Assembly: GCA_026990765.1 (NCBI GenBank)
Contig: JALXCV010000108.1
Coordinates: forward strand, 1 to 64,000
Length of the DNA: 64,000 bases
Source: Hyphomicrobiales bacterium
Lineage (GTDB): Bacteria > Pseudomonadota > Alphaproteobacteria > Rhizobiales > Aestuariivirgaceae
Reading direction: 5' to 3'
This document shows positions 453-7,360 of this stretch, one piece after another. The notes beneath the pieces were generated by a model. It was not told where the DNA came from and made no database searches. It was given only the letters and a program-made list of their open reading frames with translations. Position 1 is the first letter of the stretch, and each line of letters begins with the position of its first letter. A program made the position numbers and the translations under genes.

Positions 453-1190
453 ATGCGTTCAGGTGTCATCGCACAGAAAGTTGGAATGACCAGGGTGTTT
501 ACCGATGACGGTACACACGTCCCTGTGACTGTGCTCAAGCTGGATAATTGCCAGGTTGTTGCACAAAGAACCCAGGAAAAGCATGGCTACACAGCTTTGC
601 AACTGGGTGTGGGAACTGCCAAGGTAAAAAGAATGTCCAAGGCAGAACGCGGTCAATTCGCTGTTGCAAAGGTAGAGCCAAAGCGCAAGCTGGCTGAGTT
701 CAGGGTAAGTGAAGACAATCTCATTGAGGTTGGAGCTGAAATTACAGCAGATCACTTTGTTGCCGGTCAGTTTATTGATGCAACAGGCATCTCCATTGGT
801 AAAGGTTTTGCCGGGGCGATGAAACGCTGGAACTTTGGCGGTTTGAGAGCATCACATGGTGTGTCAATCTCGCACAGATCGCATGGTTCAACCGGTCAGT
901 GTCAGGATCCGGGCAAAGTGTTCAAGGGCAAGAAAATGGCAGGTCACATGGGTGCCCGTCAGGTTACTACGCAGAACCTTGAAGTTGTCTCGACTGATGC
1001 AGAACGTGGTTTGATACTTGTCAGAGGGGCAATTCCCGGCTCCAAGGGCGGGTGGGTTACAATCCGCGATGCTATCAAGCGCAAATTGCCTGAAGGTGTT
1101 CCGTTTCCAGGAGCCGTTCGTGGTGGAAATGATAATGAAGCTGGCGCAGAAGCAGGCAATGATGCCGAAGCTGCAGCAGCCAGCGAATAA
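453..1190 (+). CDS. rplC: 50S ribosomal protein L3
   Basis: Primary 23S rRNA-binding protein near the peptidyl-transferase centre. The product starts [16 protein letters not shown] and keeps the loop [13 protein letters not shown] chose the ATG at 453 over the GTG one codon earlier because it gives the family N-terminus and lies 8 nt after a GAGGAG-like ribosome-binding site. The last 20 or so residues form an acidic Ala/Glu/Asn-rich tail, an extension also seen in alphaproteobacterial L3. Second gene of the S10 operon, 12 nt before rplD. Confidence 0.96.
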
Positions 1191-1202
1191 GGGTTTGCTC
1201 AG

Positions 1203-1820
1203 ATGAAAACGGATGTTCAAACACTTGATGCCAAAAAGTCAGGCTCAGTTGACCTGCCTGATGCGATTTTTGGACTTGAGCCACGTGCAGATATTCTGCA
1301 CCGGATGGTGAATTACCAACTGGCAAAGCGTCAGGCTGGTACTCACTCCACCAAGTCACGCGGGGAAATCTCCCGCACTGGTGCCAAATTTGGCAACCAG
1401 AAAGGTGGTGGTGCCCGTCATGGTTCAAAACGTGCCGGTATATTTGTTGGTGGTGCAAAATCATTTGCTCCAAAACCGCGCGATCACTCAATCGGAATGC
1501 CCAAGAAGATGCGGGCACTGGCACTTTGCCATGCGCTGTCTTCCAAGGTTAAATCAGAAGAGCTGATTGTACTGGATAGCGCAACTGCCAAGACACCAAA
1601 GACAAAGGACATGAAAGCTGCTTTTGAAAAGCTGGAGCTTGAAAATGCCCTGATTATTGATGGTGCTGAAATTGATGATAATTTTGCCAGGGCAGTTGGC
1701 AATATCGCAAATATTGATGTGCTGCCGGTGCAGGGCATTAACACTTATGACATTCTGCGTCGCAAAAAACTGGTTCTGACCAAGGCAGCGCTGGAAGCTC
1801 TGGAGGCTCGCTTCAAATGA
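1203..1820 (+). CDS. rplD: 50S ribosomal protein L4
   Basis: 205 residues, the usual length. It has the [19 protein letters not shown] helix and the Arg/Gly-rich extended loop ([18 protein letters not shown]) that lines the exit tunnel. L4 is an assembly initiator and, in enterobacteria, the autogenous regulator of the S10 operon; no equivalent leader structure is evident here. Its stop overlaps the rplW start by 4 nt, which suggests translational coupling. Confidence 0.96.
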
Positions 1821-2110
1821 GCAAGGAAAAATATTACGACACCATCATCTCTCCGGTAATTACCGAAAAGTCGACAATGGCGTCTGAAAATAATCAGGTA
1901 ATGTTCAATGTTGCCAAGACAGCCACCAAGCCACAGATCAAAAAGGCCGTAGAAGGTCTGTTTGATGTCAAGGTCAAGGCGGTCAATACACTGGTTCGCA
2001 AAGGCAAAGTCAAACGTTTCAAAGGTTTGATGGGTCGCCAGAGTGATGTGAAAAAAGCAATTGTAACCCTTGAAGATGGCCAGTCCATCGATGTTACAAC
2101 TGGTCTATAG
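1817..2110 (+). CDS. rplW: 50S ribosomal protein L23
   Basis: 97 residues. The sequence [14 protein letters not shown] is the L23 signature, and the C-terminal half has the [11 protein letters not shown] basic strand. L23 lies at the tunnel exit and is the docking site for trigger factor and SRP. It begins inside the last codons of rplD through an ATGA overlap, and rplB follows 17 nt later. Confidence 0.96.
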
Positions 2111-5696: not shown

Positions 5697-6016
5697 TGCC
5701 GGTAAAAATGAAGATCAAAAAAGGTGATCGCGTTACCGTGGTTACCGGCAAGGACAAGGGTGCCAAAGGCAAGGTGCTGTTGGTATTGCCAAAGCAGAAC
5801 AAGGCAGTTGTAGAAGGCGTGAATATTTACAAGCGCCATACAAAGCAGAGTGCTGGACAGGAAGGTGGCATAATTTCGAAAGAAATGCCGATCCATATTT
5901 CCAATCTGGCGCATCTTGACCCGAAAGACGACAAGCCAACCCGTGTTGGTTACAAGATTGATGGAGAGCGCAAGGTACGTTATGCCAAACGCTCCGGTGA
6001 GGTTATTGATGGCTGA
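5696..6016 (+). CDS. rplX: 50S ribosomal protein L24
   Basis: 106 residues. The N-terminal KOW motif ([20 protein letters not shown]) and the middle segment [12 protein letters not shown] identify L24, an initiator of 50S assembly. It overlaps rplN by 1 nt and rplE by 8 nt, so all three are tightly packed and probably coupled. Confidence 0.97.
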
Positions 6017-6584
6017 TAAATATACACCCAGGCTCAAGACACTTTTCAATGAAAAGATACGTCCGGCCCTGACTGAAAAATTCGGTTACACCAACCCTAT
6101 GCAGGTTCCGCAGATTGACAAGATCGTGCTGAATATGGGTGTTGGTGATGCTGTTGGCGATTCCAAGCTGATCAAGACAGCAGTGGAAGATCTCACCAAG
6201 ATAGCAGGTCAAAAGCCTGTTGTAACACTGGCCCGCAAATCTATCGCTACTTTCAAATTGCGTGAAGGTATGCCGATTGGTGTCAAGGTAACATTGCGCG
6301 GTGACCGCATGTATGAATTTTTGGACCGTTTCCTGACAATTGCACTGCCTCGGGTACGTGACTTCAGGGGACTGAATGACAAGGCATTTGATGGCCGCGG
6401 CAATTACGCAACCGGATTGAAGGAACATATTGTTTTTCCTGAAATCGAGTATGACAAGATTGACCGTGTCTGGGGCTTTGATGTGGTTATTGCAACTACT
6501 GCAAAAACTGATGATGAAGCACGTGAATTGTTGAAAGGATTTAATTTCCCGTTTCGCCAGCGTAATCAGCAAAAAGCTGCTTAA
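6009..6584 (+). CDS. rplE: 50S ribosomal protein L5
   Basis: 191 residues from the ATG at 6009; this start gives the family N-terminus ([20 protein letters not shown]). The open frame runs further upstream, but only inside rplX. Motifs include [13 protein letters not shown], the [16 protein letters not shown] loop and the C-terminal [15 protein letters not shown]5 binds 5S rRNA and contacts the P-site tRNA. Its start overlaps rplX by 8 nt; rpsN follows after 41 nt. Confidence 0.96.
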
Positions 6585-6625: not shown

Positions 6626-6931
6626 ATGGCTAAGACAAGCACGATCATAAACAACAACAAGCGCAAGCGGATGGTAGAGTAATTTGCCGGAAAGCGGGCA
6701 GCTCTCAAAGCAATTACTCGCGATGAAAGCCTGCCTATGGAAGAGCGTTTTGCAGCCCAGCTGAAACTTGCTGAACTGCCTCGCAATTCCTCAAAAACCC
6801 GGGTGCGCAATCGTTGCGAAGTGACAGGACGGCCTCGCGGTTATTATCGCAAGTTGAAAATGTCGCGTATCGCGCTCAGGGAACTGGCTTCACAGGGCCT
6901 TATTCCTGGCATGACAAAGTCCAGCTGGTAA
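6626..6931 (+). pseudogene. rpsN: 30S ribosomal protein S14, interrupted by an in-frame TAA at codon 19
   Basis: Read through, this is a complete 101-codon S14 of the long, zinc-free type: MAKTSTIINNNKRKRMVE, stop, [19 protein letters not shown], then [20 protein letters not shown] and the usual end GMTKSSW. The TAA at 6680-6682 stands at a position that is usually Lys or another polar residue in S14. The frame is intact on both sides, so this is a substitution (for example AAA to TAA) and not an indel. The only downstream in-frame ATG is at 6737, which would lose the N-terminal third. S14 is needed for 30S head assembly, and the gene sits in its normal place between rplE and rpsH. Either the base is a sequencing or assembly error, or S14 is supplied elsewhere, or the stop is read through. 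Confidence 0.9.
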
Positions 6932-6961: not shown

Positions 6962-7360
6962 ATGAGTATGACAGATCCTTTGGGGGATATGCTCACCCGT
7001 ATCAGAAATGCGCAGATGCGCGGTAAAAGCAAAGTGGCATCACCGGCTTCCCGGTTCCGTGCCAGTGTGCTTGATGTTCTCAAGCAGGAAGGCTTTATCC
7101 GTGATTATGCCCGCATCGATTATGAAGGCGGCAAGGCTGATCTGGAAATTGAGTTGAAATATTATGATGGTGAACCAGTTATCCGCGAGTTGAAGCGTGT
7201 TTCAACACCAGGGCGTCGGGTTTATTCATCAATTGATGATTTGCCAACCGTTTATAACGGACTTGGTGTGTCTATCCTTTCCACCTCAAAAGGTGTGATG
7301 TCGGATTCAGATGCGCGCGACAGTAATGTTGGCGGTGAGGTTATCTGCACAGTCTTTTAA
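6962..7360 (+). CDS. rpsH: 30S ribosomal protein S8
   Basis: 132 residues, starting [20 protein letters not shown] and ending [26 protein letters not shown] in condensed form, a classic S8. In E. coli S8 binds 16S helix 21 and regulates the spc operon by binding near rplE. The C-terminal [11 protein letters not shown] motif is intact. It follows the interrupted rpsN by 30 nt, with a good AAGGAG ribosome-binding site. Confidence 0.97.

Follow-up and report, generated by a model that had tools for sequence, protein, structure and literature searches.

The gene for ribosomal protein S14 (rpsN) in the stretch of DNA analysed here, a window of 64,000 nucleotides from the draft genome of a Hyphomicrobiales bacterium (the source genome), is interrupted by an in-frame TAA at its 19th codon, which most probably arose as an artefact during the making of the draft. 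Comparison with related genes argues for an error of the assembly or consensus at the level of a single base, a reading which we consider probable and in which the wrong base is inferred from the sequences. Such a one-base consensus error would have turned a sense codon, which by the relatives may have stood for Gln, Lys or Asn, into TAA, and the living organism would make an ordinary full-length S14 from a sense codon at position 19. If it is not an error, the stop would be at most a mutation of very recent date, and a new way of reading genes is not indicated.

Apart from the stop, rpsN has the appearance of an ordinary gene. The frame translated from 6626-6931 comprises 102 positions and ends with a TAA at 6929-6931; its only internal stop is the TAA at codon 19 which the first-pass annotation had described, and beyond it the frame continues unchanged. 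With this stop written as X, the product scores 146.6 bits against the NCBIfam model for 30S ribosomal protein S14 (NF006477, cut-off 77) and the match spans model positions 1-101 of 101, while the alignment to the proteins of the congeners is gap-free, so that the absence of an indel claimed in that annotation is borne out. The same applies to its statement that the rest of the gene is intact and its neighbours normal, since the family model is matched and the flanking frames of rplE and rpsH are both open (Table 1). The surrounding genes, named from their ORF translations, follow the usual order of the S10, spc and alpha operons, and rpsN sits in its place in the spc operon, between rplE and rpsH. 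The gene thus resembles the long form of uS14 (NF006477/PF00253) in its full-length model match and its operon place and differs from it in one respect, the TAA at codon 19 of the assembly, which leaves the frame interrupted and is absent in the relatives examined.

Table 1. Features of the rpsN locus in the window, and the recoding site of prfB elsewhere in the source genome.
Feature	Position	Strand	Remark
rplE (uL5)	6009..6584	+	intact upstream neighbour of rpsN
rpsN (uS14, long form, single Cys)	6626..6931	+	101 codons and a terminal stop; internal stop at codon 19
In-frame TAA, rpsN codon 19	6680..6682	+	no stop at this codon in the 109 other S14 loci
64-aa ORF from Met38 of rpsN	6737..6931	+	first possible in-frame restart
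rpsH (uS8)	6962..7360	+	intact downstream neighbour of rpsN
prfB frameshift site	source contig C80, locus L154 (C80:9900-12000), just before RF2 frame 754-1824	-	

For the comparison of codon 19, 110 S14 loci were used, namely that of the source genome and 109 others. One of these (L105) encodes an S14 that is one codon longer and therefore out of register; it was kept in the counts of codon 19 and of the conserved columns and dropped from the segment identities, which accordingly refer to 108 sequences. A stop at codon 19 is found in none of the 109 related loci. The residue is Gln in 55 of them, Lys in 38, Arg in 11, Ser in two, and Asn, Glu or Ala in one each, which means that 104 of the 109 loci carry Gln, Lys or Arg. 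The position had been described beforehand as variable and usually Lys-like; by these counts it is a site for Gln or Lys/Arg and not a mainly Lys-like one. The codons themselves are CAG (36 loci), AAA (20), CAA (19), AAG (18), CGT (7), CGC (3) and AGC (2), with AAT, CGG, GAG and GCC occurring once each. A single substitution suffices to change AAA or CAA, present in 39 of the 109 loci, into TAA; of the three congeners, two show AAA (Lys) and one AAT (Asn). Starting from the AAT TTT of the congener G003, an origin from two indels is conceivable, one inserting a T ahead of AA and the other removing a T from the run behind it, but this would need two events instead of one substitution, and the frameshift pair in rpsN was considered and set aside.

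The gene past the stop is as constrained as an intact one. Between the source genome and G003, 55 of the codons 20-101 differ, 44 of them synonymously and 11 nonsynonymously; in the intact pair G003 and G001 the corresponding figures are 46 codons, 35 synonymous and 11 nonsynonymous. At the 29 S14 columns with a conservation of 95% or more among the 109 sequences, the S14 of the source genome shows no departure, which also holds for 92 of the 109 others (the out-of-register L105 has 24). Its residues at positions 6 and 8 occur in no other sequence; among the other S14 proteins 61 have no such unique residue, 26 have one and 22, including L105, have two or more. Compared with the 108 in-register sequences, its residues 20-37 are on average 58% identical and its residues 38-101 are 78% identical; the intact S14 of G003 gives 56% and 75%. 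Since the rpsN of the source genome shows no sign of decay, its stop would have to be very recent or not real.

A stop inside so conserved a frame is unexpected. In the family, an S14 match was obtained in 60 of 69 genomes, and an internal stop in the source genome only. In the order, 370 of 397 genomes gave an S14 match, and among the matches listed internal stops occur in two genomes, the source genome and G411, a draft that is 86% complete and consists of 350 contigs. In the latter, rpsN (locus L187 on contig C123, from locus position 803) loses its frame around codon 97, from where another frame carries on to the VKSSW that is expected as C-terminus. Two unrelated rpsN lesions in two drafts are what sporadic draft error predicts, the lesion of G411 being likewise known from the consensus only. 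A search of the codon-19 region in a viral collection gave no matches, and our literature search for a premature stop in rpsN returned no report.

From 126,564 assemblies, Cooley and Wright (2024, PMC11017572) conclude that assembly errors account for many of the pseudogenes in which a frameshift or an internal stop is found, and they name coverage, platform and assembler as the causes. They also describe Illumina runs as well repeatable and report that spurious stops did not occur when paired-end reads were simulated at high coverage. The case of rpsN resembles the spurious pseudogenes described there in that a single internal stop lies in an otherwise intact and constrained gene of a multi-contig draft; it differs in that theirs were tested by reassembly from reads, whereas rpsN is judged from the consensus alone.

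Proteins of the congeners cover 20.3 kb of the contig, and within this part S14 is the sole protein with a stop in its own frame, all other stop-bearing rows being, as judged by their position, shadow frames inside or opposite known genes. A coding-potential scan of 490 kb (15.8% of the 3.1 Mb genome) tested 2976 stops and yielded 12 candidates, among which no broken gene could be recognised, with a sensitivity such that 158 of 300 random internal positions passed. Nine of the 12 have a start codon at most four codons from the stop and come down to ordinary neighbouring genes. One candidate on contig C80 is presumably sufD followed by sufS, one on C90 we take to be a sensor kinase followed by another gene, and one on C51 was rejected as a broken gene, lying opposite an open frame of 601 codons. 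A codon-usage scan with a stricter threshold gave no candidates. The S14 stop itself was missed by both scans, the 54 bases before it scoring -0.6 in their own frame. That no second error was recognised speaks against a draft error, though the scan sets only a weak limit on the error rate; because of its sensitivity and because it missed S14, several errors per megabase are possible.

The S14 protein is essential, and this bears on the question of whether the TAA could be a real, very recent nonsense mutation, or the allele of a minority or of a dying lineage that was caught by the consensus. We regard this as unlikely. The one substitution from AAA or CAA would be enough, and the lack of decay in the remaining gene is as expected after a recent event, but an essential gene present in one copy would not be expected to carry a nonsense mutation in the consensus of a population, and the assembly holds no second S14 allele. 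It is more doubtful still that a bacterium with a real UAA in its only rpsN is at hand, which would have to decode this UAA efficiently by a near-cognate tRNA or to use a split S14 composed of residues 1-18 and a restarted piece of residues 38-101. If the TAA were real, it would indeed imply either high-level decoding of UAA or a split protein of the small subunit. With a base error as the preferred explanation, the case is rather one for caution, in that an internal stop in an essential and otherwise constrained gene of a draft should be taken as a probable base error and not be annotated as a pseudogene.

Of the three explanations offered in the first-pass annotation (an error in base calling or assembly, another S14 gene such as a zinc-type paralogue, and read-through), the error is the one best supported, by inference, while a second gene was not found and read-through gained no support. 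The source draft, 97.22% complete and in 169 contigs, contains a single PF00253 match, so that a zinc-type paralogue that might act as a substitute is absent from it; the three congeners have one S14 match each, and of the 60 family genomes in which S14 was matched, 59 likewise have just one. A second functional S14 could lie in the missing part of the draft and make the copy in the window dispensable, and gaps do exist, as the completeness, the number of contigs and the absence of Tyr and Ile tRNAs from the 39 tRNAs found indicate. A dispensable copy should drift, however, and drift is seen neither in the substitutions nor in the conserved columns or segment identities, which makes this explanation highly improbable.

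The exception among the family genomes is G014 (74% complete), whose two S14 matches on contigs C527 and C44 represent either a true duplicate or a mixed bin. Nine of the 69 family genomes gave no S14 match (G008, G015, G016, G026, G031, G032, G039, G059 and G065). As eight of the nine also lack rplE and seven lack rpsH, this looks like missing sequence at the ribosomal operon rather than a loss of S14. In G026, rplE and rpsH are located at contig ends, and in G015 the match is absent although the draft is scored as 100% complete.

We see even less room for read-through of the TAA, in which a tRNA, either a suppressor or a near-cognate one, would insert Gln or Lys and so give a full-length S14. 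The constraint on the frame beyond the TAA would fit, as would the presence of one other recoding site in the genome, that of prfB, and the RNA around and after the TAA is somewhat more stable than shuffled sequences (z -1.92, with 9 of 200 shuffles folding as well or better). Yet a T directly after TAA makes for strong termination, none of the 109 related loci has a stop at codon 19, whereas a programmed readthrough stop should be conserved among relatives, and no other readthrough genes were recognised in the scan of 490 kb, which likewise revealed no other broken frame. Among the 39 tRNA loci, at all of which ARAGORN confirmed tRNA genes, there is no TTA anticodon, in a set that is incomplete for lack of Tyr and Ile. 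The two matches to the release-factor domain in the source genome are RF2 and RF1 by the NCBIfam models, prfB reaching 516.4 bits (cut-off 370) and prfA (TIGR00019) 494.8 bits (cut-off 423.25). When all six frames of the 490-kb sample are counted, 220 open frames reach 300 codons or more, and 82 of them end in TAA, in agreement with the earlier statement that it is a normal stop here. A reassignment of TAA, for which a cognate TTA tRNA or the loss of a release factor might be expected, thus finds neither in this genome as far as its incomplete tRNA set goes; a changed genetic code, already considered unlikely beforehand, and a suppressor tRNA were set aside on the grounds of RF1, RF2 and the 39 anticodons. 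Nothing supports a special code or recoding at the TAA, and a literature search on readthrough brought up only papers that were off the subject by their titles and the beginnings of their abstracts.

A restart at Met38, with the ribosome using a 64-residue S14 alone or together with the 18-residue N-terminal piece, is scarcely credible, for although the 64-residue piece by itself exceeds the family cut-off (108.5 bits against 77) and the model of the short zinc-type S14, 61 positions in length, finds its match in the long form at residues 57-101 only, the N-terminal part of the protein would be lost, residues 20-37, which would then not be translated, are as conserved as in the intact G003, and the pairing with the anti-Shine-Dalgarno sequence is weaker than at all 23 other starts tested. 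The ATG at 6737 (codon 38), 54 bases past the stop, is the next in-frame ATG, GTG or TTG, and its upstream pairing amounts to -0.1 kcal/mol; 22 of the other starts lie between -3.5 and -12.2 kcal/mol, and that of rpmD is at -0.9. The earlier view that there is no usable restart with which the N-terminus would be retained is in accordance with these values.

One other recoding site was noted in the source genome, the usual programmed +1 frameshift of prfB. An AGGAGG stretch precedes its sequence, CTT TGA C, and DWDAAN is the continuation in the RF2 frame. Like rpsN it presents an in-frame stop within an essential gene of the same genome, but the RF2 frame moves on by one base, whereas that of rpsN is unchanged past the stop.

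In a FastTree phylogeny of the proteins L5, S8, L6 and S5, which covers 107 of the 110 loci, the source genome, that of an alphaproteobacterium, is nearest by distance to its three congeners, and the nearest named loci are those of a Methyloceanibacter draft, Hongsoonwoonella and Parvibaculum.
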